This document shows positions 3,843 through 32,405 of a stretch of 34,791 nt of DNA, piece by piece. Below the pieces are notes generated by a model. It made no database searches and was not told where the DNA came from. It worked only from the letters and a program-made list of their open reading frames with translations. Each line of letters opens with the position of its first letter. The stretch's first letter is position 1. A program made the position numbers and the translations under genes. This DNA comes from Crenobacter intestini (GTDB taxonomy: Bacteria > Pseudomonadota > Gammaproteobacteria > Burkholderiales > Chromobacteriaceae), in assembly GCF_004919095.1 (NCBI RefSeq), contig NZ_STGJ01000025.1:1-34791 (forward strand), written 5' to 3'.

Positions 3843-4947
3843 TACTAAGATTTTCAGAAGTATTGTCACATCGCCGCATATTGGCACTCGGGCTGGCTGA
3901 AAAATGATCTGACCGGCCTGGGTAGCTTCTGAATTCGCCGCAATGCGCCGAGCGCCATCCGCTTCATCTCGTCCATCGACTGCACAAGCTGTCTCGACAC
4001 CTGACGTTTGACGTGCGCCCAGACCTGCTCGTCAGGGTTCAGTTGCGGCGAATACGGCGGCAAATAGAACAGCCGAAGCTTTCCGCGCTGCTGCTCGACA
4101 TACTCCCGCACCAACTTGGCTTTGTGGATCGGGTGCCCATCCACCACCACGAATACTGGCATCTGCGCTCCAACCATCAGTCGCCTCAGGAAGTCTCGGA
4201 ATACGGGTGCCGTCACAGATCCTTCGTGCAACATGAAACGGAACTCTCCACGCGGGCTGACCGCCGAAATCATGTTCAGCGAAAAACGCTGGCCAGTGAC
4301 CGTGACCACCGGTGTTTCGCCAACAGGTGCCCACGTCGTGCCTGTGTGGTAATCCGAGCGGATGCCCGACTCATCCGCGAAGTAGATTGTCGCGCCCTCT
4401 GCGCGGGCCTGCGCCTTGATCGACGGATAGACCTCGGACTCCCATGCCTTGACCAGAGTGGCGTCTTGTTGCCAGGCCTGATACAGCGGCTTTTGTGCGG
4501 AGAAGCCAAGCAGCTTCATGAGCCGACTCACCGAAGCCAGCGACAGTTTCTTGCCCAGTTCACTCTCGATCAATGCCGCAATCAGTGTCAGTGTCCATAG
4601 CCCGAAGGCGAACTTGTACTGCTGGGGGCTATGATCCTTGACCGCATTCGCCAGCCAGCGCATTTCCTCCGCGCTGATCTTGGCCGGTCGGCCAGGAATC
4701 GGCTTGGCCAGCAGCGCGTTCTGTCCACCGTTGGCAAAGTCGGCCAGCCAGCGGAACACACTGCGCACATTGACACCGTACGCAGCCGCTACGCTGTGCA
4801 CATCCTGCCCTTCACGAATGGCCTTGATGGCCTGCTGCCGCATGACAGGAAGCGCTGCACGGCCATGCTTGCGGCCATCTGTTGATCGTTTGCATTTCAT
4901 GTGAGTATTTTCGCATGAAAATGACAATGTTTTATAAAAGGTTAGTA
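3843..4947 (-). mobile_element. IS630-family insertion sequence, complete
   Basis: The element is bounded by TA dinucleotides at 3843-3844 and 4946-4947, as expected for IS630/Tc1-type target duplication. The left end begins TACTAAGATTTTCAGAAG and the right end finishes AAAAGGTTAGTA, giving a short imperfect terminal inverted repeat. The left boundary is confirmed by a second copy at 32348, where the same sequence begins abruptly after a TA inside another gene. One transposase gene fills the element. Insertion was 26 bp past the glycosyltransferase stop codon. Confidence 0.85.
3866..4900 (-). CDS. IS630-family transposase
   Basis: This 344-residue transposase starts at the ATG at 4900 (MKCKRSTDGRK); the longer open frame to 5008 runs past the IS end and is not used. 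The N-terminus carries a helix-turn-helix (QQAIKAIREGQDVHSVAAAYG... SVFRWLADF). The DDE catalytic core is complete: the first Asp in IYFADESGI, the second in VVVDGHPIHKA, and the Glu in LPPYSPQLNPDEQVW. Length and layout are normal for the family, so the protein may be active. The related copy at 32371-32685 retains only the C-terminal third. Confidence 0.92.
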   Translation of the reverse strand: MKCKRSTDGRKHGRAALPVMRQQAIKAIREGQDVHSVAAAYGVNVRSVFRWLADFANGGQNALLAKPIPGRPAKISAEEMRWLANAVKDHSPQQYKFAFGLWTLTLIAALIESELGKKLSLASVSRLMKLLGFSAQKPLYQAWQQDATLVKAWESEVYPSIKAQARAEGATIYFADESGIRSDYHTGTTWAPVGETPVVTVTGQRFSLNMISAVSPRGEFRFMLHEGSVTAPVFRDFLRRLMVGAQMPVFVVVDGHPIHKAKLVREYVEQQRGKLRLFYLPPYSPQLNPDEQVWAHVKRQVSRQLVQSMDEMKRMALGALRRIQKLPRPVRSFFSQPECQYAAM

Positions 4948-4973
4948 TCTGATAACCTGAACTTCTTGTAATT

Positions 4974-5963
4974 TCAGAAATTTCGTCGTACAGGGAGATG
5001 GCGTACAAACGGTTGTTGCACTACCTGTAGCACCAAATCAATTCTATCCAACCTTTCCTGCAGTAATACAGGCGAGACAATCCGAGTTTTGTCATTGGCT
5101 GAAAATATAGTTGAGCGCCAAGCTTGCCAGTTTTTCATGTTGACTCGCTCGTGTAAATTCGACATTGGGCTACCTAGCGGATATGACCAGTACGGGGAAA
5201 CGGCAGCATGCAACGCCAATTGGTCCATTGTAGGATCATGTATCCCTAAAGCAGAAAGCACCTCTCGCCAAACATTAAATACTGCATGGTTAGTTGCGCC
5301 TTCGCTTTGCATGGTTTGGCCTGAATGAATAAGATGCTTTACCACTGGTTGTGCGATGGAGCCTATACGCCAATGTTTCGCAAGGCGAAAGGCATGAAGC
5401 CAGTCTTCTCCAATACGTAACTCGGGAGGGGGTACATCTATTAATGATGACCGACGCAACATTGTGGCACAACCCCAGATAGGGCAACAAAATATAGATT
5501 CAACTAGTAGAGCCTCATGATTACACGGAAACACCTGGACGAAAGGAGCATTCTCTCTAGCCATTAGCAAACTTCCACCAATCATTCCCAATTTCGAATC
5601 CGAAATAAAAGATTGCAATTGGTAAATGAAGCGCATTTCAAGCGCAATGTCATCTGCGTCATGGAAGGCGATAAAATCCCCGCGCGAGTGCTCAATTGCA
5701 ATACGCCGAGAAACACCAGGCCCAACATTTTTATCTAGTGATATTAGTTGTATCGAAAAGCGTGGATCATGTTGAATTGGATGTCGCCGCAGAAGTTCAA
5801 GTGTATTATCTTGCGAAGCATCATCAACCAACACCAAATCAACAACCCCTATGCTATCCAGGCAGGCCTCACGCAATGAGTTAAGAGAAGCATAGAGATA
5901 ATTCTCTACGTTATAGCAAGGCACTACGATGCTTAGTGTTGTCAATTTATTTAATTCACTCAA
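4974..5963 (-). CDS. family 2 glycosyltransferase
   Basis: This 329-residue GT-A fold enzyme opens with the nucleotide-sugar motif LSIVVPCYN (residues 10-18), then VLVDDASQDNT and a metal-binding DXD-type AFHDADD near residues 99-105. A later GEDWLHAFRLA matches the acceptor-side ED motif of GT2 enzymes. It should transfer a sugar from a nucleotide donor to a surface polysaccharide or lipid acceptor at the cytoplasmic face of the membrane; the substrate cannot be deduced. No ATG lies between an upstream TAA and the domain, so the start is probably the TTG at 5963 or another non-ATG codon. It stands alone, without a polysaccharide cluster, beside insertion sequences, and looks like a stranded cargo gene. 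Confidence 0.82.
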   Translation of the reverse strand: MSELNKLTTLSIVVPCYNVENYLYASLNSLREACLDSIGVVDLVLVDDASQDNTLELLRRHPIQHDPRFSIQLISLDKNVGPGVSRRIAIEHSRGDFIAFHDADDIALEMRFIYQLQSFISDSKLGMIGGSLLMARENAPFVQVFPCNHEALLVESIFCCPIWGCATMLRRSSLIDVPPPELRIGEDWLHAFRLAKHWRIGSIAQPVVKHLIHSGQTMQSEGATNHAVFNVWREVLSALGIHDPTMDQLALHAAVSPYWSYPLGSPMSNLHERVNMKNWQAWRSTIFSANDKTRIVSPVLLQERLDRIDLVLQVVQQPFVRHLPVRRNF

Positions 5964-8083: not shown

Positions 8084-9211
8084 TTAATACTGTTCGCCAC
8101 GCGAACCACCCTCCTCGTCCAGCCAGCGGATCCGACTGCAGTTAAGGTCAGCCAGTGATCGGTAGGCCACGCGCACTTGTTGGCCCTGGCCGAATTCGAG
8201 CAGCGTGACACGTTCCCCTTCAACCAGTTCGACCTTGTACTGAATGCCTGCGCGCTCGAAGTAACGGCCTTCACTGACGTGCCGTGGCTTGTTTTCGGCA
8301 AGAATCTGGTCGGCTTCCGGCAACCGGGCGAACTGCTCGAACCAGTCTTCGGCCGCAGTAGCGACGGCTGTTTGCTCGCCTGCGTGACGGGCGTGTTCGC
8401 ACGCCCGTCGGGCGCGCTGTTCAAACCGCAAGAGATCCCCCTCGCTGACCGGCTGCGGCGCACCGCCCTGCACTTCCGGTCGACCCAGCACAAAGGTGTT
8501 GCCTTCGCTGCGCAGCGTCTCGCCGCTGGCAAGCAAGGGCAACGAGCCGTCGGCGATCCGGTGCAGCAACAGGCGCTGGCTCTGGGTTAGCTGCTTGATC
8601 GCGTTGGCAGCCTGTACATGCTGGCGGTATTTCTCCGGTTCCTTGAGGAAGCTGCGGAACACCAGGAACAGGTTCTCCCCGCTGTAACGCGTAATCAACT
8701 GGCCGAATTCTTTCAGGCGCTGCTGCAGGTTGACGCCTAGGCGCTTTGCCTCGCGCAGCAAGGTCGCGATTTGGATGGGTTGCACTCCTCTGTCGAGTAG
8801 TGACATCGACGGACGCGGCAAGGTGAAGCGGCCGACTCTGAAAAATCCTTCCGGCAAGCCGGTCTTGGCGTCGGTGGGCCTGCTTTCAATCTTTTCGGCC
8901 AGCAGCGCTGCGCCTTTGGCGGTGAAGCGCAGGGTCTTGTCATCGCCCATCGGCTCAATAATTCCTTTTTTTCTTAAATTCCCTAAAATCTTGAAAAAGC
9001 TAGTTTTTGCCAAATCGGCGAAATCCGCGATTTTCTTGCGGTGAGCCGTGATTGGACGCGTGTAGTCCGCAGAGTCCAAAAAACAGATCAATGCGGCGAC
9101 CAGGTCCTTTTCGCCGGCACCGGACAACTCGGTGTTGATGGCCAGGCGGTTCATGCGCAAGGCGGTCTGCAGTACCAGCAGCTTGTGCGGGAAGTTGGTC
9201 AATGTAGACAT
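8084..9211 (-). CDS. winged-helix plasmid backbone protein, possible replication initiator
   Basis: This is a 375-residue protein starting at the ATG at 9211, with GAGG at good spacing. I do not recognise the family. Residues ~40-105 look like a winged helix (DYTRPITAHRKKIADFADLAKT, FFKILGNLRKKGIIEP, LRFTAKGAALLAEK). The central part is helical and charged and the C-terminus is rich in beta-like segments ending DEEGGSRGEQY. It sits directly downstream of parA, parB and the palindrome array on the same strand, the usual position of a replication or copy-control gene, and no other Rep candidate is visible. That context is the only reason to suspect a replication role. Two hairpins precede the start, so expression may depend on readthrough or attenuation. 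Confidence 0.7.
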   Translation of the reverse strand: MSTLTNFPHKLLVLQTALRMNRLAINTELSGAGEKDLVAALICFLDSADYTRPITAHRKKIADFADLAKTSFFKILGNLRKKGIIEPMGDDKTLRFTAKGAALLAEKIESRPTDAKTGLPEGFFRVGRFTLPRPSMSLLDRGVQPIQIATLLREAKRLGVNLQQRLKEFGQLITRYSGENLFLVFRSFLKEPEKYRQHVQAANAIKQLTQSQRLLLHRIADGSLPLLASGETLRSEGNTFVLGRPEVQGGAPQPVSEGDLLRFEQRARRACEHARHAGEQTAVATAAEDWFEQFARLPEADQILAENKPRHVSEGRYFERAGIQYKVELVEGERVTLLEFGQGQQVRVAYRSLADLNCSRIRWLDEEGGSRGEQY

Positions 9212-10215
9212 GGTTGACCCTCATAAAAGCCGACGCCCACCTGGCTGTGCGTGTGCGAGGTGGGCGTCTTGCTGAAAATGATCCGGAATGAAAAAGGCCT
9301 CAGTCGTGTGACTGAGGCCTTTGGCTTGGTCCGCCGAGTTTGCGGCGGTCTTGGATCTCTATGTGGTGGTCTACCACCACTCGGATCATGCTTGGTTGGT
9401 GGGCAGTTCAGTTGACTGAACTGTCTGGCCAGAAGGGAGTGCTGCGGGGCAGGCGTTGTCGCCTGGTTCAGTCGACTGAACTTTGTTGCGTGCGGTGCTT
9501 CCATTGCGGAAGGCAGTGCACGGTTCAGTTGACTGAACTGACGATTGCGCACGCTTGCGTTGAACGGCCAAAGCGATAGGTTCAGTCGACTGAACCGCGT
9601 GTGAGTTTGGCATGCATATACATGCATGCAGTTCAGTTGACTGAACTTGGCTACTGCCAGTTGAACTGGTGCGTCCACGTTCACTCGGTTGAATTCGCTG
9701 ATCTGGTTTGCCGATCTCGGCAAACCGTTCAACAAATTCAGTCGGGTGGATGCGGTTGCTGCCGAGGCGTGTGCCGAAGGCAGGTTCAGTTGACTGAGCT
9801 GGTTGTTCTGCGACTCGGCATGCTGAGGGTAAGACTGTGAGTTCAGTCGACTGAACCGGGTGAGTGTCATCCGTGCGAGCGCATCAAACTGATCGCAGTT
9901 CAGTTGACTGAACTGGCGTGCGAGGTGACGGGGCAATGCTTCCACAGCCACTCGGTTGAACACGCTGTTCGTGCATGCACCTTGCGGGGCGCCGTTCAGT
10001 ATGTTCAGTCGGGTGGGGGCGGTTGTTGTCGAGGAGTGTGCTGATGCGAAGTTCAGTTGACTGAACCCGCTTGAGAGAAGGGTGAAAGCAAAGCGCAAAC
10101 CCACTGAGTTCAGTTGACTGAACTCAGTGGGGGAGGACGCGATGGCCAGTTCGGTAACTGGAAAGTTCAGTCGACTGAACTGACTGGATTTCGCCGTGCG
10201 TACGAGTGACCTCAA
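9199..10215 (-). CDS. possible 338-codon gene spanning the palindrome array
   Basis: One minus-strand frame is open across the array and beyond. Each palindrome is read in the same phase as F-S-(Q/R)-L-N, so the product would be a 19-residue-repeat protein. For coding: every site spacing is a multiple of three, 338 codons have no stop, and the start (TTG at 10215) overlaps the parB stop as TTGA. Against: the start is TTG with a weak ribosome site, the last ~70 codons run through a strong terminator, and the two 267-bp copies differ about equally at all three codon positions by my hand count (17, 16, 19). Conserved silent positions in the palindromes show DNA-level selection. Treat as unproven. 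Confidence 0.28.
   Translation of the reverse strand: MRSLVRTAKSSQFSRLNFPVTELAIASSPTEFSQLNSVGLRFAFTLLSSGFSQLNFASAHSSTTTAPTRLNILNGAPQGACTNSVFNRVAVEALPRHLARQFSQLNCDQFDALARMTLTRFSRLNSQSYPQHAESQNNQLSQLNLPSAHASAATASTRLNLLNGLPRSANQISEFNRVNVDAPVQLAVAKFSQLNCMHVYACQTHTRFSRLNLSLWPFNASVRNRQFSQLNRALPSAMEAPHATKFSRLNQATTPAPQHSLLARQFSQLNCPPTKHDPSGGRPPHRDPRPPQTRRTKPKASVTRLRPFSFRIIFSKTPTSHTHSQVGVGFYEGQPCLH
9232..9268 (-). terminator. hairpin just upstream of the backbone gene start
   Basis: Perfect 11-bp arms GACGCCCACCT (9232-9242) and AGGTGGGCGTC (9258-9268) flank a 15-nt loop. On the minus strand the stem is followed by GGCTTTTA. It lies 20 bp before the ATG at 9211 and could be an attenuator, a second terminator or a protein-binding site. 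Confidence 0.55.
9291..9322 (-). terminator. rho-independent terminator after parAB and the array
   Basis: A 13-bp perfect stem (AAAGGCCTCAGTC, loop GTGT, GACTGAGGCCTTT) is followed on the minus strand by a run of five T. This is a strong intrinsic terminator for transcripts coming from parA-parB. The stem top CAGTC...GACTG echoes the half-sites of the palindrome array. Confidence 0.8.
9406..10180. repeat. parS: array of 16-bp palindromes, probable parS centromere
   Basis: Eleven strong sites of consensus GTTCAGT(C/T)GACTGAAC begin at 9406, 9466, 9523, 9580, 9631, 9784 (one mismatch), 9841, 9898, 10051, 10108 and 10165. Four decayed sites begin at 9679, 9736, 9946 and 10003. Start-to-start distances are 60, 57, 57, 51, 48, 57, 48, 57, 57, 48, 57, 48, 57 and 57. 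Blocks 9631-9897 and 9898-10164 form a 267-bp tandem duplication with identical site layout. The form (16 bp, GTT...AAC) resembles, from memory, parS sites of Burkholderia secondary replicons. The place beside parB supports binding by this ParB. An iteron or operator role is the alternative. Confidence 0.85.
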
Positions 10216-11210
10216 TCCGTGTCTCTCATCTGGCTGAGGTGGTTGAGTAGCACGCGCTCGACTTCTTCTGCCATGCGCGCAATGCCGTCTGCCGGGAGGT
10301 TGGTCAGATCCAGTGCGACGCTGAAAGCCTTGTCGTTGAACTTGATCTTGCCAACGCCGGCGATCGGGCGGGAGTTGGACGATGCCCGCTTACGCCCCTT
10401 GCCGCTGGAGTGTTCAAGTTGCTTGGTGGCGTATTCGCGCAATTTCTGTTGCGACCAGCCTTCCGCGATTTTGGTGGCGGCAAATTTGGCCTTGTCGAGA
10501 CCTGCTCGTTCCTGTAGGGCATGAATGCGGTCGACAGCAGTGCTGCCAAACAACGTCTTGTTCGACTCGATGATTTCAAGCAGGCTGACGTCAAGCTTGG
10601 AAAATTTCAAAACCATCGAAATGAGGGATTTGTTGACACCAAGCGACTGAGCGATTTCATCCTGGCTTGCGAACACGCCTTGTTCGAGTGCCGCGTGGAA
10701 GCTCATGCCCCGGTCGTAGTCAGACATCGAGGTGCGAGCTTCGTTGGCGTCGAAGCCCATCCGGTAGGCGTCCGCAGCGCTCATCGCAGGCTTGATGACG
10801 GCCTTGATGGTGTCCGTGACCTGGATCGAGCGCATGGCTTTCAGCCGGGTCAATCCATCAATCACTTCGTAGCGGCCATCCTGTTTGGCGAACACTGTGA
10901 TCGGGGTGATCTGCCCGTTGAGCGGATTGCCGTCTCCGACACGCAGGAAGTCCAGCGCCATCCGTTCGACGTCTGTCGTGCTGTAATGCCAGCGCGGCCT
11001 GACTTTCGGTTCGTCGATCAGCGCCATCGACAGGATATCGAACGACTCTCCCTGAGTTGGCAGCTTGGCAGGCGACTCAGGGACAGGGGAGGGCGCTTGC
11101 TCGTCGAAGTTTCGCACCAGATCTTCCAGCGAGACGGACCCGCTGGGTTTGGGCAGGCGGGAAGGTCCGCGCTGGAACTGGTCGACGCCTAGAGGACGGC
11201 CGCGGGTCAT
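10212..11210 (-). CDS. parB: ParB-family partition protein
   Basis: This 332-residue centromere-binding protein begins at the ATG at 11210, overlapping the parA stop by ATGA. Residues ~68-160 form the ParB/Srx domain: ITPITVFAKQDGRYEVIDGLTR with DGLTR in place of the usual GERR, then NEARTSMSDYDRG as the second box. The helix-turn-helix is near residues 180-203 (SQDEIAQSLGVNKSLISMV). The basic stretch GKGRKRASS and a C-terminal helical dimerisation region follow. It should bind the palindromes downstream, spread, and stimulate ParA. The atypical first box means nucleotide-dependent clamping cannot be assumed. The N-terminal ~65 residues are low-complexity and probably hold the ParA-contact segment. 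Confidence 0.92.
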   Translation of the reverse strand: MTRGRPLGVDQFQRGPSRLPKPSGSVSLEDLVRNFDEQAPSPVPESPAKLPTQGESFDILSMALIDEPKVRPRWHYSTTDVERMALDFLRVGDGNPLNGQITPITVFAKQDGRYEVIDGLTRLKAMRSIQVTDTIKAVIKPAMSAADAYRMGFDANEARTSMSDYDRGMSFHAALEQGVFASQDEIAQSLGVNKSLISMVLKFSKLDVSLLEIIESNKTLFGSTAVDRIHALQERAGLDKAKFAATKIAEGWSQQKLREYATKQLEHSSGKGRKRASSNSRPIAGVGKIKFNDKAFSVALDLTNLPADGIARMAEEVERVLLNHLSQMRDTD

Positions 11211-12307
11211 TTCTTGCCTCCATCGAGTACCTTCAGTCGACTGAGGATTTCCATGCTGACCGAGCGCATCGCCTCGATGCTCAGTGGCGTCGCCTGCTTG
11301 AAGAAAGCAATCGGCACGTTTTCGTCCAGCGCCTTGTTGTAATCCTCGGTCTGGTGGAGCTGATGTTCGGTGATGTGGTTCGGGAAACGCTCAGCAAGCG
11401 TAGCCAGGTTGCGCTGCATGCGCGGACGGGTCCGGCTGAACATTGTCGGCACGGGCACGACATCAGGAGATCGGCCGGTTGCGTCCGAAAACTCGACCAG
11501 CATGTCTTCTAGTCGGCTCAGCGCGCGCAAAGAGAACTTATCGAAACGGATCGGGCAGACCAGCATGTCTGCTGCGACCATCGCGTTGCGGCTGAGTGCA
11601 GCGCTCGACGGCGAGTTGTCGAAAATGATCACATCGTAGACCGACAGGTCGACGCCCGGGATTTCGCCATTGCGTGCCTTGGCGATGAACAGGCTGTAGC
11701 GCAAGTCGCTATGCATCGAGGCATTGAGGCTGGTATTCATGTCCTCCAGTGCTTCGTAAGCCGGGATCAGATGAGGCCCGTACTGCCCAAAGGGATACTT
11801 GATCAGCTGGTCTAGCGTCATCGCTTCGTTGCGCGAATTTGGCAGCGGCAGCAGGTTGCCCCAGTGGCCCGTGATGCCAAGGTCAGCGGACAGTCCTTCC
11901 TCCTTGAGGTCCTCGGGGGAACGGTCCGGGTCGTAGCCCAGCATCGAGGTTGCATCGCCCTGAGGGTCGTTGTCGACCAGCAGGACACGCAAACCCTGCA
12001 ACTGAAGGTTGATGGCCAGGTTGACCGCCAAGGTGGTCTTCGCAACGCCACCCTTGCGGACAAAAACGGTGATGATCTTCTGGCTGGAGAGTCCCTTGAG
12101 GTCTCCCTTTGCCCGACGTCGCCACTGCAACTCGAAGACGTTGTCCGGCGAGTAGGAGCGCGCTTCGACCGAGCCGCGCATTACCCGGCCCACTTCGACA
12201 CCCAGATCTTCTTCCAGTTTACGGATGTAGCCAGGCGTCGTTCCAAGCAGGTCGGACACGAATTTCGGGCTGAAGCTCAGATTGTTGAGGGTGCCGTCAG
12301 AAGACAT
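11207..12307 (-). CDS. parA: ParA-family partition ATPase with N-terminal DNA-binding domain
   Basis: This 366-residue protein starts at the ATG at 12307. Residues ~10-45 look like a MerR/helix-turn-helix domain (SPKFVSDLLGTTPGYIRKLEEDLG), typical of large type Ia ParA proteins that also repress their own operon. The deviant Walker A is RKGGVAKTT at ~84-92, followed by VLLVDNDPQGDAT at ~107-119 and VIIFDNSPS as the Walker B region. It should form an ATP-dependent nucleoid-bound gradient that positions ParB-bound plasmid. It leads a parA-parB operon with a 4-bp overlap. A 13/16 match to the array palindrome lies within its last codons. Confidence 0.95.
   Translation of the reverse strand: MSSDGTLNNLSFSPKFVSDLLGTTPGYIRKLEEDLGVEVGRVMRGSVEARSYSPDNVFELQWRRRAKGDLKGLSSQKIITVFVRKGGVAKTTLAVNLAINLQLQGLRVLLVDNDPQGDATSMLGYDPDRSPEDLKEEGLSADLGITGHWGNLLPLPNSRNEAMTLDQLIKYPFGQYGPHLIPAYEALEDMNTSLNASMHSDLRYSLFIAKARNGEIPGVDLSVYDVIIFDNSPSSAALSRNAMVAADMLVCPIRFDKFSLRALSRLEDMLVEFSDATGRSPDVVPVPTMFSRTRPRMQRNLATLAERFPNHITEHQLHQTEDYNKALDENVPIAFFKQATPLSIEAMRSVSMEILSRLKVLDGGKK
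11231..11246. promoter_or_regulatory. partial match to the array palindrome inside parA
   Basis: CTTCAGTCGACTGAGG matches the array consensus at 13 of 16 positions and keeps the palindromic core TCAGTCGACTGA. It is read as LSRL in parA, in the same phase as FSRLN in the array. It may be an outlying ParB site or chance. Confidence 0.4.
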
Positions 12308-12495: not shown

Positions 12496-13794
12496 TTACG
12501 ACAGATGCTGGACGACCGATTCAGGTGGTTTCGTGCGTGGTAGTTCGGCGAAGCGGGAGGAGTAGCACGGACTGGTCTTGTCGCGGCGCATCTGCCATCC
12601 GCTAGCGATCGCCTCGGCGCCCAGCCTGAGCGTGCCGCGGCCGTAGCGGTGGTTGACGGTGTCGAGCGCGCCCAGTAGCGCCAGGCGTGCGGGCCCGGTC
12701 TTTGGCGCCAGCCAGTCAGCCTGCCGTGCGGCGCCCGTTTGCAGCTCGGCCAGCATCACGCCGACCTTCTTGTACGCGTAGCCCTTCTTGTAGAGCCGAT
12801 CGAGCAGCGCGAGCGCCGCGCGGGTGAGCGCGAGCGTGTCACAGCTTGCGACCGGCAACGGCCGCCAGTCGCACGCGTGGTGCTGCGCGTCCTGTTCGCG
12901 GAAGCGGTGGGTGTGCAGTTGCACGCCAATCAGGCCGGCGGCGCTGCCTTGCGCGCGCAGGTCGTGTGCCGCCTGCGCGGTGTGGTGGGCCAGCGCAGCG
13001 GCCAGCGCGTCGCGCTCGTAAAGCAGCGTGCCGAAGCTGCGGCTGCGCACCAGTTGCTGGCGCGGCGGCGCGACGTCCTCCAGCGCGAGGCAGGCGGCCC
13101 CGTTGAGTTCGCGGATCACCCGTTCCACCACCACGCCGAAGCGGCGGCGGATCAGCGCGGGGTCGGCGCGGGCGAGATCCAATGCGTTGTGGACGCCCAG
13201 GTCCGAGAGCTGGTCGGCAAGCCTGCGCCCGATCCCCCACACCTCGGCCGCCGGCTCGCTCTCCAGCGCCTTCGCCTGCCGTTCCGGGCTGAGGCTGCCC
13301 CAGTCGAGCACGCCGGCGAGCTTGCCGTGCCGCTTGGCCAGATGGTTGCAGAACTTGGCCAGCGTCTTGCTCGGGCCGACGCCGACGCAGGTGGGCAGAC
13401 CCACCCACTGTTCGACGCGCGCGCGCAGGCGCTGGCCAAGGTCGGTCGGGTCGTCCGGCAGGCCGGTGAGGTCGGCGAAGCATTCGTCGATCGAGTACAC
13501 CTCGAAGCGCGGCACCAGCGAGGCTATGATGTCCATCATGCGCCGGCTCATGTCGGCGTACAGCTCGTAGTTGCTGGAGAACACCGTCAGCAGCCCCTTG
13601 CGCTCCAGGTGCGCGACCTCGAAATACGGCGCGCCCATGCGGATGCCGAGCGCCTTCGCCTCGCGGGTGCGGGTCACCACGCAGCCGTCGTTGTTGGAGA
13701 GCACCACGATCGGCGTTTTGGCCAGGTCCGGGCGGAACACCCGCTCGCACGAGGCGTAGAACGAATTGCCGTCGATCAGCGCGAACGTGGGCAT
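12496..13794 (-). CDS. umuC: DNA polymerase V catalytic subunit UmuC
   Basis: This 432-residue Y-family polymerase starts at the ATG at 13794 ([20 protein letters not shown]), 19 bp inside umuD; the frame stays open to 13836 but that adds no conserved residues. Catalytic motifs are intact: [12 protein letters not shown] with the first metal-binding Asp, [12 protein letters not shown] for nucleotide contact, and [12 protein letters not shown] with the Asp-Glu pair. Helix-hairpin-helix and little-finger regions follow. With cleaved UmuD it performs error-prone translesion synthesis. A plasmid copy can raise mutation rates under stress. GC content is higher here than in the accessory right half. 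Confidence 0.95.
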
Positions 13795-14222
13795 GCGTGC
13801 TTGACGATGAAGGTGACCACGCCGATGAGCCGCCACTCCTCATCGCCGCCCGGGCGCAGCACCGGATAGGGCATCCACGCGTTTTCCGGATGCAGCTCGA
13901 GGCCGGCCGGCGTCTTGCGCAGGCGCTTGACGGTGAACTCGGTGGCAAGCTGCACGATCACGATGTTGCCGCTCACCGGCTCTCGCGCGCGGTCGACCAC
14001 CAAGAGGTCGCCGTCGTCGATGCCGGCGTCGCTCATCGAGTCGCCCGCCGCGTACAGCGCGAAGGTCGCCGGCGGGTGGGCGACCAGGTACTGGTTGAAG
14101 TCGAGCGCGCCGGCGGCGTAGCTCTCCGCCGGTGACGGGAAGCCCGCCTGCACGCGCGCGTGCATCAGCGCGGTGGTGGCGGCAGCCGGCGCGAGGGCGA
14201 CGGGGGTTAGGTGCGGTGTCAT
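13776..14222 (-). CDS. umuD: UmuD, self-cleaving polymerase V subunit
   Basis: This is a 148-residue S24 family protein. The ATG at 14222 ([13 protein letters not shown]) gives a normal UmuD length; the frame remains open to 14303 without a better start. The cleavage site is Ala-Gly in [12 protein letters not shown]. The nucleophile is Ser in AAGDSMSD and the general base is Lys in FTVKRLRK. RecA filaments should trigger self-cleavage to the active form that joins UmuC. It overlaps umuC by 19 bp, so the two are translationally linked. Confidence 0.93.
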
Positions 14223-14231
14223 CGCGGTAAT

Positions 14232-14256
14232 CTTGAAATGCGAAACATTATTCAAG
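14232..14256. promoter_or_regulatory. inverted repeat before umuD, candidate SOS operator
   Basis: CTTGAA (14232-14237) and TTCAAG (14251-14256) are separated by 13 nt, immediately upstream of the umuD start. It does not match the CTGT-N8-ACAG form of LexA boxes, so assignment to LexA is uncertain, but no better SOS box is visible. Confidence 0.3.
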
Positions 14257-14649
14257 TTTGCCGCAGCCAACGCCGCCGTGCAACGGCGCGGCGGCCTTGG
14301 CATGCATGGCCGGTAGTTTGCCTAAAAAACAGGCAGTACGTGCAAGGCAGGCGGGGCGAGGGTTGCGGGGGTGGCAGGCGCCGTGGCGGCCGGGTTTTCA
14401 ACAGAAATTGTGAATATCAGGCTTTGGTAATGCCAGAGCGAGAGTTTGCAGGTTGGTCGTGTTGAGCAGGTCTGCCACACGTCCTACGCATGCATGTAGA
14501 TTGGACGATTGGCGCTTGCTTTAAGCGGCCTCGTTCACTCGGCAGTAGGAGGCCTTCGGCCCATGGGGAAGGCCTTCGGCCGTGGAGGACGCCTACAGCG
14601 TCCGCGCTCTTGGCCTCGGGTTGAACCGCTGGGCGTAAGGATCGACAAG
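14257..14649. other. intergenic region with clustered hairpins
   Basis: No gene is convincing. GGCCTTCGGCC occurs twice (14551-14561 and 14571-14581), each able to form a tight hairpin, followed by GGACGC-ctaca-GCGTCC (14587-14603). Together they look like a termination or processing region at the end of the minus-strand gene at 14650. Confidence 0.5.
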
Positions 14650-14827: not shown

Positions 14828-15000
14828 ATGGACACGAAAACCGATTCCGAACACATCACACCCGCCGGCGGCAACGTTTTCGTCGATCTGAGCTGGGCTT
14901 CTAGTCCGAAGAAGCGGCAGCGCTCAAGGCGGAATCGGATCGCCGCATCGAGGCGCGACAAGCGGAACCGCCGGCTGGCGACAATCAGGAAGATTAGACG
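14828..15000 (+). pseudogene. HigA/Xre-type antitoxin N-terminus, frameshifted
   Basis: ATG at 14828 follows GGTGGAGA. The product begins MDTKTDSEHITPAGGNVFVDL, which resembles the start of Xre-type HigA antitoxins. After VDL the natural continuation (GF.SEEAAALKAESDRRIEARQ) is in another frame that also holds a TAG. The DNA-binding domain is absent, so the gene is both shifted and truncated. Its tail overlaps the end of the opposing nucleotidyltransferase gene. Confidence 0.55.
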
Positions 15001-15386
15001 GGCTTAGCCCCGGCCAGCACCTTGTCTTTGATTGCGTCAGGCAGGGCTCCCGCCGTCAGCAGATCGACCTTCACGCCAAGCAAGTCGGACAGTCTGAGAC
15101 GCAAACCCGCCAGATCGAACAGCGTCGCGTCGGGCAGCGCATCCACCAGAATGTCCAGATCACTGCCCTCGTCATCCGTGCCATGCAGCACCGAACCGAA
15201 CACTTGCTGATTGGCGAAGTGGTATTGGCCGACAAGCTCGCGGATCGCCTCGCGGTAAAGCTCCAGCGCGACGGACGGCAGGCCGCTCGCGCCGAACAGC
15301 CGCTCGATTTCAGGTGCCGGTGCATCGAAATCGTCGGGCACGTCGAGCCGCCCCTTGAGCGCCCCAATGCGCTTTTTGCTCACCAT
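14994..15386 (-). CDS. MNT-type nucleotidyltransferase
   Basis: This 130-residue protein starts at the ATG at 15386, with GGAGGG upstream, and overlaps the previous gene by 7 bp. The minimal nucleotidyltransferase motif is plain near residues 63-82: FGSVLHG, then EGSDLDILVD with the paired Asp residues that bind metal. MNT proteins transfer nucleotides (often AMP) to proteins or RNA, commonly as the antitoxin of HEPN toxins. No HEPN partner is next to it. The first ~35 residues (KKRIGALKGRLDVPDDFD) look like the short N-terminal segment of antitoxins that follow ParS-like genes. It is the last gene of a six-gene overlapping operon. Confidence 0.8.
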   Translation of the reverse strand: MVSKKRIGALKGRLDVPDDFDAPAPEIERLFGASGLPSVALELYREAIRELVGQYHFANQQVFGSVLHGTDDEGSDLDILVDALPDATLFDLAGLRLRLSDLLGVKVDLLTAGALPDAIKDKVLAGAKPV

Positions 15387-15829
15387 TCCCCATCCCTCCG
15401 CGACTCGACAAACCGCACCACCTCGGCCAGCCCTTCGGGCGTGCGGATCACCTCTATCGGCTGCCCGCCCAACTCGGAATTCACGCAGCGCATCCACGCT
15501 GGCGCGGTGCCGCCGGCAATACCATCGAGCGCAACGAACAGCCGCACAAACAGCACGCCCCGCCCGCGCAGATCGTCACCCGCTGCGTCGGCCTGCACTT
15601 CGTCTGGCACACCCAACAGCCCCGCCGCCCGCGTCACGGCTTTGTCGAGCACTCGTTCTGCCACCGGCGAGCGAACTGCCGAGGAATTCTCGGTAGTTCG
15701 ACCGGCGTCATCCAGCACCTCGGCGCCCACCTCGCCCATTTCGTCCCAGCCTTCCACTCGCGGCAGACGCTCCGGCATTTCGGCCAGCAGGCCGTCCAGT
15801 CGATAGCGTTTTCGCTTACTCTGCATCAT
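15380..15829 (-). CDS. antitoxin-like protein with MazE-like start and ParS/MbcA-like C-terminus
   Basis: This is a 149-residue protein. The first ATG (15829) overlaps the previous stop as TGATG; a second ATG follows directly. Residues 3-20 (QSKRKRYRLDGLLAEMPE) resemble the linker of MazE/ChpB-type antitoxins. Residues ~55-145 (ERVLDKAVTRAAGLLGV, then SELGGQPIEVIRTPEGLAEV) resemble the toxin-binding domain of Xre/MbcA/ParS antitoxins, which normally pair with RES toxins. No RES gene is beside it; the neighbours are a metallophosphoesterase and an MNT nucleotidyltransferase. Both similarities are from memory and weak. The operon position suggests it regulates or restrains one of these enzymes. 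Confidence 0.6.
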   Translation of the reverse strand: MMQSKRKRYRLDGLLAEMPERLPRVEGWDEMGEVGAEVLDDAGRTTENSSAVRSPVAERVLDKAVTRAAGLLGVPDEVQADAAGDDLRGRGVLFVRLFVALDGIAGGTAPAWMRCVNSELGGQPIEVIRTPEGLAEVVRFVESRRDGEW

Positions 15830-19147: not shown

Positions 19148-21382
19148 TCAGGTGCCTTGTGTGTGTTCGGTCTTGTTGGTCGAGCGCCAGCGGCGGGCGT
19201 GGTGCTTGCTGAACAGGGTCACCGCTTGTTTGGCGAAGGCCTGGGCGACGCCTTTCTCCAGCAGGTAGTGGGCGACAGCCTTCTCGTACTGCGCGCGCGA
19301 GCCGCAATCCTCGGGGCGCGGGAAGGGGTCTGCAGGTGGTGGGGCTGCCGGCGTGGTCGTTCCTTGCGCGGCCGCGTGCAGGCTCTCGTACACGAAACGG
19401 CTGGCGGTCATTTCCTTGGGGTCGGGCAGGCTGCGACGCTGGCCGCGCTGCACATCCTCCAGCGTCTTGTCGATGGGGAGGACCAGCGACAGGCGCTGGC
19501 GGGCGCGGGTGATCGCCACGTAGTAGAGGCGCCGTTCGCCTTCGAGGTCGTCGCTCTGCTCGCCGGGGAAACTGCCTTCTTCCAGTTCGCTGACGATGAC
19601 GTGCGGCCATTCCAGACCCTTGGCGCGGTGGGCCGAGGTGATCAGCACGCGGTCACCGCCGTCGTGCGGCTGCGACTGGACAGCGTTCAGCGCGTCGAGC
19701 AGGCCGGCGACGGAGAGCTTGTCCTGCTTGGCGAACGCTTCCACGTACTTGACCATCGCCCACTTGGCCAGCGCGCGCGGCTTGCTGCCGGCCGAGTTCA
19801 GGAAGAAGCGCAGCAGCGCCATGTCGTCGATCAGCCAGTCGAGCACGTCGACGGCAGACTTGCCGGGCTTGGTCTTGGCCAGCCGCTCGATGCGCTTGAC
19901 CATGTCCGGCAGTGCCTTGCCGCGCGAGTCCGCGGCGAGGCGGCCCAGCGTGTTCAGCAGCAAGGAGGCAGGGTGGGCACCCTCGGCGGTGACGGCCTGG
20001 GCGATCTGGCGTGCCGTGCTCTCCACCACTTCGCGGCGCAGGTAGAGGGTCGGCACGGTCAGCAGCGCCTCCAGGAGCGCCGTGCACTGCGCTTCGCCCA
20101 TCGCCGGCCAGCGCTCCGGCTGGCACAGGGCGAGGTGGGCGTACAGCGACAGCACTTCCTTGCGGTCAACAAACGGATCCGCGCCGGCGAGCCGGTACGG
20201 GATGCCTTCCTTGGACAGGGCGATCTCGACCGGGATGGAGTGGGCGAACTCGCGCACCAGGATTACGGTGTTGGCGCGCGGGCCGTCCCAATGGTCGAGC
20301 GCACGCAGCACCGCGTTGCCGGAGCCGCCGCCGTAGCTGTAGAGGCGAACGTCGGTGTCGAGGCCGTCGGCGCTCTGGGAGGCTTTGTCGATGCGCGCCT
20401 CGTTGTGGCGGATCGCGCCGTTGGCCAGCGTCGCCACCTGCGGCCCGTAGCGGAAGGTGGTGGTCATCGCATAACGCACCGTGCCCGGGAACAACTCGCC
20501 GAAGCGGTGCACGATGTACTCGGGCTTGGCGCCGCGCCATGCGTAGATGCACTGGTCGCCGTCGCCGACCACCATCATCTGCGCGCGGTCGCCGGCGACG
20601 ATACGCACCAGTTGCATCTGCAGCTCGTCGATGTCCTGGAACTCGTCGATCAGGCAGTGCACGTAGCGGTTACGCACCAGTTCGACCGCCGCCGGCTCGT
20701 GCTGCAACACGGTGTACGGGTCGTGCAGCATGTCGATGTAGTCCATCAGGCCGCGGCGCACCCGCAGCGATTCGTACTCGATGGCGGCGCGCACCAGCGG
20801 TGGCACGACTTGCAGGCGCTTGGCCTTGTCTTGCAGCTTGGCTTCGGTGAAGGCCGGGTCGTGGTACAGCAGCTCGGCCTTCAGGTAAGCGTCGAGATCC
20901 ACCACCGCCAGCACGGCTTCCTGATCGGTCTCCAACTGCTCCTCGGCCTTGAGGCGGCCGTTGATCGACTTGATCGCCTCGCGCACCAGCGCGTCGCGCT
21001 GGCCTTCCTTCATCAGCGTCCGGTGCGGCAACCAGCCCTGCTTGACGAAGGCCTTGCACAGCCGCAGCCCGAAGGCGTGGAAGGTGGATACGTCCGGCGT
21101 GTGCAGCACGCGCTCTGCGTCGGCGGTCTTCTGCAAGCGGCTGCTGAATTCCTCGCGCGCCTGCGCGTTGAACATCAGCACCAGGATGTGCTTGTACGAC
21201 ACGCCGCGCTCGAGCAGGGTGAAGATGCGCGCGATCAGCGTGTGCGACTTTCCGCTGCCGGCGACGGCATCGACGATGGCGTGGCCGTCGCCGTGCAGGG
21301 CGACGCGCTGTTGCTCGGGGGTGAGGGTGTCGATCAATGCAAATGCTTTTTGAATTGGATTAATCGCCCAAGGATAGCGCAA
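19148..21382 (-). CDS. UvrD/Rep-type superfamily 1 DNA helicase
   Basis: A 744-codon frame carries all SF1A motifs: AVAGSGKSHTL (Walker A), STFHAFGLRLC (Ia/Ib), LIDEFQDIDELQ (Walker B), GDGDQCIYAWRG (III), TTFRYGPQ (IV), SAHRAKGLEWPHV (V) and YYVAITRARQRL (VI). It should unwind DNA 3'-5' using ATP and may serve plasmid replication or repair. No ATG is available near the N-terminus; the TTG at 21382 opens the frame, while a TTG just before IDTLTPEQQRVAL would fit the usual family start. The C-terminal extension after motif VI (RFVYESLHAAAQ... ALFSKHHARRWRS) is not typical. Confidence 0.9.
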   Translation of the reverse strand: MRYPWAINPIQKAFALIDTLTPEQQRVALHGDGHAIVDAVAGSGKSHTLIARIFTLLERGVSYKHILVLMFNAQAREEFSSRLQKTADAERVLHTPDVSTFHAFGLRLCKAFVKQGWLPHRTLMKEGQRDALVREAIKSINGRLKAEEQLETDQEAVLAVVDLDAYLKAELLYHDPAFTEAKLQDKAKRLQVVPPLVRAAIEYESLRVRRGLMDYIDMLHDPYTVLQHEPAAVELVRNRYVHCLIDEFQDIDELQMQLVRIVAGDRAQMMVVGDGDQCIYAWRGAKPEYIVHRFGELFPGTVRYAMTTTFRYGPQVATLANGAIRHNEARIDKASQSADGLDTDVRLYSYGGGSGNAVLRALDHWDGPRANTVILVREFAHSIPVEIALSKEGIPYRLAGADPFVDRKEVLSLYAHLALCQPERWPAMGEAQCTALLEALLTVPTLYLRREVVESTARQIAQAVTAEGAHPASLLLNTLGRLAADSRGKALPDMVKRIERLAKTKPGKSAVDVLDWLIDDMALLRFFLNSAGSKPRALAKWAMVKYVEAFAKQDKLSVAGLLDALNAVQSQPHDGGDRVLITSAHRAKGLEWPHVIVSELEEGSFPGEQSDDLEGERRLYYVAITRARQRLSLVLPIDKTLEDVQRGQRRSLPDPKEMTASRFVYESLHAAAQGTTTPAAPPPADPFPRPEDCGSRAQYEKAVAHYLLEKGVAQAFAKQAVTLFSKHHARRWRSTNKTEHTQGT

Positions 21383-24405: not shown

Positions 24406-24957
24406 ATGTCCGCAAAGAGAAACGACTTCACCCGCCCTCCCGGTGCGGCGAATCCACCCTGGCAACCGCGCACCCTGAGCAAGGCCGAGTTTCACGGGGC
24501 GCTTCGTGAGAAAGGACTGTCCTTGTCGGACGCCGCCTTCCTGTGGGGGGTGTCGGTCGCGAACGCCAGTCGGGTGGCCGCCAACCCCGGCCGGCCGGCG
24601 CACTGGCTGTTCGCGCTGGCCGCCTTGCCGAAGCTGCGCGCCGCGGAGTTGAAAGCGTTGCGGGCACAGCGAAAGCAGCAAGGTCGGCCCGGGCAGTCCC
24701 AGCCAGGGGCGGTCGTTCAGGCAGCATCCGTGGCGGCCGAACTGTATGAAAGCGTGGCGTGCCATGCGAGCTGCGGCCTGGCCGAGGAGGGGGATGCCGA
24801 TGGCTACATCAAGGCCGTACGCGGCGCGGGGGCAACGCTGCAATTTCTGGTGTGCTTCCCGGCAGGGGAAGACTGGTTTGGCGCGGTGCTGTTTGACGAC
24901 TACTTCTACACGACCGGACGGATCGTGCGGCCCGCAGCGCGCGAGGTGACGGTATGA
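24406..24957 (+). CDS. helix-turn-helix protein coupled to a tyrosine recombinase
   Basis: This is a 183-residue protein starting at the ATG at 24406, preceded by GAAGGGCG; an ATG at 24382 has no such site. Residues ~27-62 form a Cro/C1-like fold (KAEFHGALREKGLSLSDAAF, WGVSVANASRVAANPG). The C-terminal half (AELYESVACHAS, then QFLVCFPAGEDWFGAVLFDDY) is a separate domain I do not recognise. The stop overlaps the recombinase start as ATGA, so it may regulate or assist recombination, like an excisionase. That is inferred from coupling only. Confidence 0.7.
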   Translation: MSAKRNDFTRPPGAANPPWQPRTLSKAEFHGALREKGLSLSDAAFLWGVSVANASRVAANPGRPAHWLFALAALPKLRAAELKALRAQRKQQGRPGQSQPGAVVQAASVAAELYESVACHASCGLAEEGDADGYIKAVRGAGATLQFLVCFPAGEDWFGAVLFDDYFYTTGRIVRPAAREVTV

Positions 24958-26138
24958 GTGACACCGAGATCGCGCTACTCGACGCGCAGCCCTTGCCGGC
25001 CTTGCACGGCATGCTGGCGCAGGCCGTCGGCGCCAACCGCAATCTTGGCCAGAGCTGTCGCTTGCGTGCCCAGAATGACCGCGAGGCGGTGATCGCCTGG
25101 CTGGCCAATGTGGCCGAGTCCGCGCATACGCGAGAGAGCTATCTGCGCGAGGCCGACCGGCTCTACCGTTGGGCGGCCTTGCGCGGGGCGACCCTGTCCG
25201 ACCTCAGGCATGAAGATTTTGTGCTGTACCGGGCGTTCCTGGCCAACCCCCAGCCCGCCGCATTTTGGGTCTCCCCGTGCCGGCATCGGCGCAGTCACCC
25301 CGATTGGCGACCCTTCACGGGGCCGCTTGGCGAAAGCTCGATCCGCCTGTCGATGTCCGTGCTGAATGCGTTGTTCAGCTGGCTGGTCGAAGCGCGCTAT
25401 CTTTGCAGCAACCCGCTGACCTTGGCGCGCAAGCAACGACAGCGCGGCGACCGACGGATTACGCGATTGCTGAGTGAGGCGCAGATCCAGACGGTGTTTA
25501 CGGTATTGGCCGCACAGCCATGCGACACGCCCCTGACTGTGCGGGCCGTGGCCCGTAACCGCTGGCTGTTGACGCTGGCCCTGCTGACCGGGCTGCGCGT
25601 GAGCGAGATTGTGGAGACCCGGATGAGCCAGTTGTACGCCTTGCCCAACCGCAGCGGCAAGCTGTGCTGGTATGTGGATGTATTGGGCAAGGGGAGCAAG
25701 CACCGGCAGGTGCCGGTCAATAGCGAATTAATGGCGGCGCTGGCCGACTATCGGCGAGGCTTGGGTTTGCCGGATACGCCTGCGGCGAATGAGCATTTAC
25801 CCTTGGTGTGCAAGGTCAAGCCGCTCAAGGGCGGCGGACTGGATGCGGCACCGATGACCCGCCAGGCGGCGCATATTATTTTGAAGCAGCTTTTTAGGCA
25901 GGCCGCGGACTATTTGCGTGACCATGGTCGATCGGACGAGGCGGGTGCGCTCGAGGCCGCGTCTGCGCACTGGCTGCGTCATACGGCAGCCTCATGGATG
26001 GCCAGTTCTGGCCAGTCGATCCATTCGGTGAAAGACACGCTGGGCCATGCGGACTTGAGTACGACCAGCCGGTATTTGCATACGGAGCTGGATGCGCGGC
26101 ATCAGGATATGGAAAAGCTGCGGATAGGCCGGGGTTGA
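24954..26138 (+). CDS. tyrosine recombinase / integrase
   Basis: This 394-residue protein has a SAM-like N-terminal core-binding domain (residues ~45-150) and a catalytic domain with the full residue set: Arg in TGLRVSEIV (~215), Lys in LGKGSKHRQ (~249), His-x-x-Arg in HWLRHTAAS (~339-342), His in LGHADLS (~364) and the Tyr nucleophile in TTSRYLH (~374). It should cut and rejoin DNA at specific sites for integration or for plasmid multimer resolution. It follows the helix-turn-helix gene with a 4-bp overlap. No attachment repeats are obvious, so resolvase-like use on the plasmid is possible. Confidence 0.92.
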   Translation: MSDTEIALLDAQPLPALHGMLAQAVGANRNLGQSCRLRAQNDREAVIAWLANVAESAHTRESYLREADRLYRWAALRGATLSDLRHEDFVLYRAFLANPQPAAFWVSPCRHRRSHPDWRPFTGPLGESSIRLSMSVLNALFSWLVEARYLCSNPLTLARKQRQRGDRRITRLLSEAQIQTVFTVLAAQPCDTPLTVRAVARNRWLLTLALLTGLRVSEIVETRMSQLYALPNRSGKLCWYVDVLGKGSKHRQVPVNSELMAALADYRRGLGLPDTPAANEHLPLVCKVKPLKGGGLDAAPMTRQAAHIILKQLFRQAADYLRDHGRSDEAGALEAASAHWLRHTAASWMASSGQSIHSVKDTLGHADLSTTSRYLHTELDARHQDMEKLRIGRG

Positions 26139-31769: not shown

Positions 31770-32405
31770 ATGGACAAGATCGAACAAGTCAAGCAACTGG
31801 TCAGCGAGATCAATCGCTTGCATCGTGATTTTTCGAATGACTTTTTCGAGACTGACAAAATCGAAAAGATCAACCTGTCCAGAACCATCAAGCATGTGCC
31901 GCACGCGCATATTTATCGCTACCGCCTCGCCTTGCACGAGAGCGTCAATGATTACCTGATGATGGCGGAGATCGACATCAAATACTTTTACCGCGTGAAG
32001 ACGCGGGAGAGCATTGACGACAAGATCGGGCGTTTCGCCAACCGCGAAGACCAATACCCGGTCAACAACTGGCTGAATGATATTTTTGGCGCCAGAATCA
32101 TTCTGTCCGCCGCTGAAATCGAAGCTGTCATGGATTTGCTGGATGCGTGGCAGGATGAGCTAGGCCTGAAGAATTGGTATATACGCGACAAGGTCGGCTA
32201 TCGATGTCTGCATGTGCACTTCAATAACAAGAGCAATTACTATTTCCCGTGGGAGTTGCAAATATGGGATGTGGCAGACATTCAAAGCAATATCGAAAGC
32301 CACGAGAAGTTCAAGCGTAATTTCATGTGGTTGTCGGATTCAATAAGTACTAAGATTTTCAGAAGTATTTTCACATCGCCGCATATTGGCACTCTAGCTG
32401 GCTGA
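31770..32405 (+). CDS. RelA/SpoT-type nucleotide synthetase, 3' end replaced by an IS630 copy
   Basis: ATG at 31770 follows GGAGA at good spacing. The single domain carries the synthetase residues: RVKTRESIDDKI (~75-86, ATP-binding Arg and Lys), NDIFGARI with the metal-binding Asp (~104), VGYRCLHVHF (~142-151, guanine-stacking Tyr) and WELQIWD (~161-167, catalytic Glu and Gln). SHEKFKR (~177-183) matches the end of the domain. Only a synthetase is present, as in small alarmone synthetases and toxSAS toxins, which make (p)ppGpp/(pp)pApp or pyrophosphorylate tRNA. From 32348 the sequence is IS630, so the last ~18 residues are foreign and the native C-terminus is lost. The core may still fold. 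Confidence 0.78.
   Translation: MDKIEQVKQLVSEINRLHRDFSNDFFETDKIEKINLSRTIKHVPHAHIYRYRLALHESVNDYLMMAEIDIKYFYRVKTRESIDDKIGRFANREDQYPVNNWLNDIFGARIILSAAEIEAVMDLLDAWQDELGLKNWYIRDKVGYRCLHVHFNNKSNYYFPWELQIWDVADIQSNIESHEKFKRNFMWLSDSISTKIFRSIFTSPHIGTLAG

Follow-up and report, generated by a model that had tools for sequence, protein, structure and literature searches.

The window analysed here is the whole of a 34,791-nucleotide stretch of Crenobacter intestini DNA. Its minus strand carries, in this order, parA (12307-11207), parB (11210-10212), a 338-codon open frame (10215-9199) and a rep-like gene (9211-8084), with overlaps at every junction. An array of palindromic sites, located by pattern scan, lies within the open frame.

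11207..12307, minus strand: parA, 366 aa, Walker ATPase with N-terminal extension, type Ia-like (Pfam AAA_31, E 4e-27)
10212..11210, minus strand: parB, 332 aa, ParB/Spo0J-like, ATGA overlap with parA (TIGR00180, E 3.5e-13, below cut-off)
9199..10215, minus strand: open frame of 338 codons, TTG start within the TTGA overlap of the parB stop, 13-nt overlap with the rep-like gene
8084..9211, minus strand: rep-like gene, 375 aa, no family match above cut-off
9291..9322, minus strand: terminator-like hairpin inside the open frame, 13-bp stem and T run, in the parB direction (from the sequence; a consensus terminator scan did not report it)
9232..9268, minus strand: hairpin just upstream of the rep-like start (RNA fold)
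9406..9421, unstranded: putative parS site, exact, rep-proximal end of the array
9466..9481, unstranded: putative parS site, exact
9523..9538, unstranded: putative parS site, exact
9580..9595, unstranded: putative parS site, exact
9631..9646, unstranded: putative parS site, exact
9647..9783, unstranded: 137-nt segment with degenerate in-register half-sites, 63% identical to its paralogue 9914-10050
9784..9799, unstranded: putative parS site, one mismatch
9841..9856, unstranded: putative parS site, exact
9898..9913, unstranded: putative parS site, exact
9914..10050, unstranded: 137-nt segment with degenerate in-register half-sites, C. caeni copy shorter by 12 bp
10051..10066, unstranded: putative parS site, exact
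10108..10123, unstranded: putative parS site, exact
10165..10180, unstranded: putative parS site, exact, parB-proximal end of the array

The partition genes and their palindromic array

The AAA_31 match of ParA spans residues 77-274 of 366, and the extension is recognized as the ~76 residues in front of it; SopA and RepA models also match ParA, with scores under the cut-offs. The Pfam and NCBIfam matches of ParB all fall under the curated cut-offs, and structure matches were obtained with Spo0J (E 2e-5) and Noc (E 3e-5). The rep-like protein, whose predicted structure has a model pLDDT of 41, shows weak similarity to genes in the corresponding position in Comamonas and Acidovorax. The same contig also encodes a transposase (DDE_3, window 3866-5008), a family 2 glycosyltransferase (4974-5963), a UmuC/UmuD-like pair (12496-14303), a nucleotidyltransferase-domain protein (14994-15497), a UvrD helicase (19148-21382), a phage-integrase-family recombinase (24954-26138) and a RelA/SpoT-domain protein (31770-32405).

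The array is built from the 16-bp palindrome GTTCAGT(C/T)GACTGAAC, present in ten exact copies and one with a single mismatch. The initial annotation had counted fifteen sites; eleven stand, and the other four are degenerate positions in register with them, at 48/57-bp steps within two 153-bp intervals. Those near 9679, 9736 and 10003 have 4-5 mismatches to the 16-mer, and that near 9946 has six (counted by hand), above the mismatch limit of the scan. The site-to-site spacings are, in order, 60, 57, 57, 51, 153, 57, 57, 153, 57 and 57 bp, and all eleven site starts equal 1 modulo 3. The claim that every spacing is a multiple of three thus holds for the window, with all sites in a single codon phase. 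We also note a three-mismatch copy of the site at the end of parA (window 11231-11246), read as L-S-R-L-K, which is at about chance level by our own estimate.

The six 41-nt spacers are equal in length, and their 28.6% identity, against 25.9% after shuffling (P 0.07), indicates that they have no common sequence. The differences between the two 137-nt paralogues are spread evenly over the codon positions (19, 15 and 17), with no clear bias. Both paralogues keep CCACCCGACTGAA..TTCAACCGAGTG half-sites, which may be weaker sites for ParB or belong to another protein. Helical phasing was rejected, as the sites share no common face: 57 + 48 = 105 bp makes ten turns, and 60 and 51 bp do not fit. A hairpin role of the spacers was also dropped, because the spacer palindromes of the window are not preserved in Crenobacter caeni (alignment judged by eye).

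The exact site is absent elsewhere in the 3.4-Mb host assembly and is present in two of 61 genomes of the family. The locus has three features of a type Ia ParABS system: a Walker ParA with an extension, a ParB/Spo0J protein from the same operon and a palindrome cluster adjoining that operon. The uniqueness of the site in the assembly and its position between parB and the rep-like gene make it most likely the parS of a type Ia-like plasmid. The array is very probably the centromere of this system, and ParB would bind the putative sites.

Genome contigs were scanned for two 14-base site cores with 30-60 bases between them (44-74 bp apart). Five loci were returned, of which C. caeni alone has this array; no family of at least four palindromes was found at three others. 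The fifth is a CRISPR-like array of Pelagibius sp. Alg239-R121 (locus L024, 6987-7350), the 37-nt repeat of which ends in GTTCAGTCGACTGAAC, the putative parS palindrome; this is probably a coincidence. The proteins encoded upstream of that array look like type III (Cmr) proteins. Viral contigs gave no array by pattern and no confirmed ParB or rep-like relative, and phages gave no match to the array DNA.

The open frame in two Crenobacter species

The initial annotation described a 338-codon minus-strand frame that starts in the TTGA overlap of the parB stop and reads the sites as F-S-(Q/R)-L-N. The frame is open and reads as described, the site at 9784 being L-S-Q-L-N. When the sites were held fixed and the spacers shuffled with dinucleotides kept, this frame was open in ~1% of shuffles (0.0096 of 5000), and any of the three frames was open in 3.5% of 2000 such shuffles. 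The 57-bp spacing recurs, so the spacings are not 14 independent events; by our own count there are ~6 (57, 48 and 60 bp, and the 6-, 12- and 3-bp differences to C. caeni), with a chance of ~1/729. The TTG start is weak, and in our reading no clear Shine-Dalgarno sequence precedes it.

C. caeni HX-7-9 (NZ_JAAGAA010000015.1), with a ParB 98% identical, is the only close relative found. ParB of this kind occurs in two of the four members of the genus group in the genome set, and a second, weaker match in C. caeni is a different protein. The C. caeni array comprises ten sites, of which two carry a single mismatch, and the frame there is open through to the same stop as in the window. One 57-bp unit is missing (the site at 9466 or that at 9523, ambiguously), and the four length differences of 3, 12, 6 and 57 bp are each divisible by three, so the frame-preserving indels that had been proposed as a check in related plasmids are found in all four cases. 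The two species differ at three of 160 aligned bases in the sites and at 97 of 546 in the spacers. This bears out the statement that silent positions in the sites are fixed, and supports selection on the sites at the DNA level. The tail past the array differs at 7 of 204 positions and the stretch before the first site at 16 of 32.

Substitutions in the flanking genes fall mostly at third positions, unlike those in the array spacers. The counts at codon positions 1, 2 and 3 are 6, 1 and 54 in parA (366 codons), 4, 3 and 66 in parB (332 codons), and 24, 13 and 80 in the rep-like gene (375 codons); in the spacers they are 29/185, 28/185 and 40/176. The GC content of the frame at positions 1, 2 and 3 (0.56, 0.51 and 0.60, against 0.61, 0.43 and 0.73 in parB) is not gene-like either. 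The frame thus shows neither the codon composition of a gene nor the purifying selection of its neighbours.

Several tests nevertheless place this frame first of six, each weakly. For the spacers, a method without correction for transition bias gives a dN/dS of 0.58 (bootstrap 0.40-0.84), and the synonymous excess reaches P 0.05-0.07 by permutations that respect base changes and P 0.18 by codon. The 113 substitutions that fall in the spacers and ahead of the first site create no new stop (P 0.03-0.06), and none is gained either in the other minus-strand frame whose sites are stop-free (P 0.07). The frame ranks first on the BLOSUM test as well, at P 0.07 only. The TTGA/TCAA-centred sites, seven per species, are all oriented so as to avoid TGA, and, given their shared ancestry, represent few independent events. 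These comparisons suggest that the amino acids of the frame are weakly or not constrained.

A functional FSxLN repeat protein, whose gene doubles as the centromere, could account for the 338 open codons and for the dN/dS value, and the corresponding frame of Comamonas endophytica is annotated as a hypothetical protein in its record. We consider such a protein very unlikely. Against it stand the composition, the lack of a family match at the cut-offs used and of a plasmid relative at E up to 1, a site peptide that is not common to the genera and differs among them because the DNA site differs, the near-random spacers of Comamonas described below, and the course of the frame across the terminator-like hairpin. 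Of the proposal that the centromere doubles as a repeat-protein gene, the kept frame survives, in Crenobacter and as a stop-free frame in five more genera; the repeat protein is not supported.

A second alternative takes the locus to be an ordinary non-coding parS array, in which the 57-bp period, shared ancestry and stop-poor composition have by accident produced the open frame and the multiples of three. This account is possible, although we rate it below a kept frame. It is helped by the composition of the frame and by the existence of only two close copies (the window and C. caeni), owing to which single tests reach just P 0.01-0.07. It does not readily explain why several tests agree, including the starts near the parB stop and the antisense controls in other genera given below, or why unrelated spacers are still of frame-keeping length.

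Arrays beside related parB genes

ParB relatives were gathered by tblastn, DNA similarity and genome searches, with part of each match list examined. The loci inspected for arrays were 28 plasmid loci, C. caeni, G044 (a plasmid-like contig of the same family) and nine further loci, of which L080 is probably the plasmid of L043. Eighteen arrays with at least four sites downstream of parB were tested. Two loci with the array upstream of parA (L041, L042), two with repeats before parB (L057, L062) and those lacking a palindrome in at least four copies were left out; the contig of L083 stops 107 nt past parB and is outside the count. Two Delftia records (D. acidovorans and D. lacustris) have the same open-frame length and spacings and were counted once.

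The sites' own stops block every frame in six arrays: G044, C. antarctica plasmid 2 (a second Comamonas plasmid), a P. aeruginosa plasmid, two Burkholderia/Caballeronia plasmids and G214. The remaining twelve have at least one sense frame with stop-free sites, and nine of these are also without a spacer stop, where 1.0-7.9 stops per frame are expected (both Crenobacter, Thauera, two Comamonas, Delftia, Diaphorobacter, Acidovorax and A. caldus ATCC 51756). In A. caldus MTH-04, G081 and G177 the sites allow a frame, yet the spacers are closed. Antisense frames with stop-free sites carry stops near expectation (e.g. 6 vs 5.7 and 13 vs 9.7) in Crenobacter, Thauera, Comamonas, Delftia and Acidovorax; Diaphorobacter had no such frame.

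By lineage, five of eight are open (P ~4e-4), a value obtained with Crenobacter excluded, A. caldus (one of two strains open) scored as not open, Delftia hand-set at 0.02 for its tandem repeats and several others hand-rounded. The Comamonas, Delftia and A. caldus ATCC arrays had been seen before the hypothesis was formed. Among the arrays fetched afterwards as a test, those of Thauera, Diaphorobacter and Acidovorax are open and those of C. antarctica plasmid 2 and A. caldus MTH-04 are closed; D. lacustris, in the same set, matches D. acidovorans. A second expansion by eight new loci gave three arrays, none of them open. At Polaromonas, Sulfuricystis and Sphaerotilus, with ParB also close to that of Comamonas, no array of at least four palindromes was found.

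Spacings in multiples of three, with a single codon phase, are neither needed for an open frame nor universal. The sites alternate between two phases in Delftia and occupy all three in Diaphorobacter, both open, and are not all in one phase in Thauera. Sites lie out of phase in the G044, Burkholderia-type and A. caldus arrays, and the A. caldus strains differ by 1-bp indels in the array. The Acidovorax spacings (54, 60 and 60) are multiples of three; those of G081 (87 throughout) and G177 (33, 252 and 45) are too, but no frame is open. No clear bias by codon position is seen in the Delftia repeats, and gene-like codon composition was found in none of the frames examined.

The G044 contig (ParB 35%, rep 37%) has the parA-parB-array-terminator-hairpin-rep order of the window. 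Its ten TTCTATAGCTATAGAA sites differ from those of the window in being TTTCTATAGCTATAGAAA-type and spaced at 47-53 and 97 bp, with stops in every frame. The initial annotation held that homologous arrays out of phase or with stops in this frame, together with the absence of a peptide, would speak for a DNA array only. G044 goes part of the way: its homologous array is out of phase and carries stops, in an assembly that has broken genes, yet the array spacings are equal in its two near-identical copies. The par region occurs twice in one contig (C1; L053 and L054) at 99.5% identity, suggesting that the assembly went more than once around a plasmid.

The par loci of Comamonas, Delftia, Diaphorobacter, Acidovorax and Thauera resemble the window in having parA, parB and an array whose stop-free sense frame opens close to the parB stop, followed by a gene of 304-345 aa. 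They differ from it in their site sequences and in a leader that is conserved among the five and missing from Crenobacter. Because of this common leader the five genera count as a single replicon group and not as five independent cases. The open-frame ATG lies, relative to the parB stop, at +2 in Thauera, -7 in Comamonas, +11 in Delftia, +12 in Diaphorobacter and 0 in Acidovorax, and the TTG of Crenobacter at -3. An ATG within -8 to +16 nt of the parB stop is found in five of six open lineages against five of 68 other frames (Fisher P 9e-5, each genus entering once and the controls uncollapsed). All six array frames in the five genera end exactly at a conserved ATGACNT(GA/AG) element, and 179-196 nt separate this end from the next gene; the element is in frame at three loci, and at three the frame ends at its TGA.

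The leader itself (about L060 4245-4548, matched in L059, L044, L066, L067 and L063) contains a hairpin GAACCCCGC..GCGGGGTTC, AAACCCCGC-type in two. Next comes ATGACNT(GA/AG), which is preceded by a purine-rich stretch and resembles a two-codon mini-ORF; further on lie a second hairpin, preceded by an A run, and a CCGACGCCAATCGG-like sequence.

The two Comamonas loci are 81% identical in parB (last 800 nt) and 96% in the leader, whereas from site 1 to site 4 they are 49% identical, against 42% in a shuffled control. All six of their spacings (225, 132 and 78; 294, 66 and 81) are divisible by three, and the two frames are open and end at +532. The content of this array has turned over and its frame has been retained, which is the clearest single case. 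We also note that such turnover, to near-random identity (L060 3845-4265 vs L059 930-1356), is unusually fast within a centromere array.

An array was called frame-kept when a stop-free sense frame goes with in-frame length changes. C. caeni shows both. The five other genera have the stop-free frame, with length changes compared in the Comamonas pair and within Delftia. G044, A. caldus MTH-04, G081, G177 and the other five arrays with frame-forbidding sites are not frame-kept, and the non-coding account gains from the G044, Burkholderia-type, A. caldus MTH-04, G081 and G177 arrays.

A probable centromere within a readable frame

Known centromeres are likewise tandem arrays downstream of parB, which also favours the non-coding account. 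parS arrangements vary, according to the part of PMC9499535 consulted. The F plasmid, described in an excerpt of PMC8465637 as a type Ia system with twelve 43-bp repeats downstream of the operon, shares with the window a parA-parB operon (sopABC) followed by a tandem array of ParB sites. Its 43-bp repeat is not a multiple of three, so successive repeats change codon phase; in the window every spacing is divisible by three and a single open frame runs through the sites, a comparison in which F is represented by its repeat length alone. In repABC replicons, parS can sit within ORFs as in the window, but an excerpt of PMC9040568 describes one to few sites, some in following ORFs such as cas genes, where the window has the entire array in a parB-coupled frame.

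Taken on the DNA comparisons, a parS array inside a parB-coupled ORF, of which the readable frame is kept and the protein sequence is not, is the explanation we moderately favour. That selection keeps the frame in Crenobacter and in the Comamonas-type plasmids, most simply through translation, seems rather probable. Ribosomes finishing parB would reinitiate at the TTG that overlaps its stop and continue across the whole array, the stop-free frame being maintained and the encoded sequence being free to change. The eleven palindromes could fold in the array RNA, and a transcript that is kept translated may escape Rho or truncation by RNA folding. Translation of the frame, and this purpose of it, would follow from such a reading. 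Against it speak the weak TTG start and the terminator-like hairpin of the window: a transcript that ended at this hairpin, upstream of the frame's stop codon, would lack a stop.

The 3' end of the frame offers a further possibility, namely that translation through the array into the hairpins before the rep-like gene acts as an attenuator that controls rep and links the levels of parB and rep. The 13-nt overlap of the frame with the rep-like gene agrees with this, as do the strongly folded leader (z -7.8 for the RNA of 9199-9405), 97% conserved between the two Crenobacter species, and the frame ends at ATGACNT(GA/AG) in the five other genera. G044, however, has a terminator-like hairpin and a pre-rep hairpin without a frame, and the frame of the other genera stops well short of the next gene. 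Such an attenuator is a special case of a translated frame, with a probability that overlaps that of the explanation preferred here, and we regard it as unlikely.

No title or abstract opening on a frame-kept parS array was found among the matches listed in one open-access literature collection, and within this scope the novelty is provisional. Returning to a kept frame, the plasmids compared here may, tentatively, represent a betaproteobacterial class in which the centromere lies in a translated parB-coupled frame, its sequence drifts and the passage of ribosomes is the function. If so, translation would constrain a centromere in addition to protein binding, partition would be tied to gene expression in a new way, and DNA arrays could occupy reading frames without a useful product.
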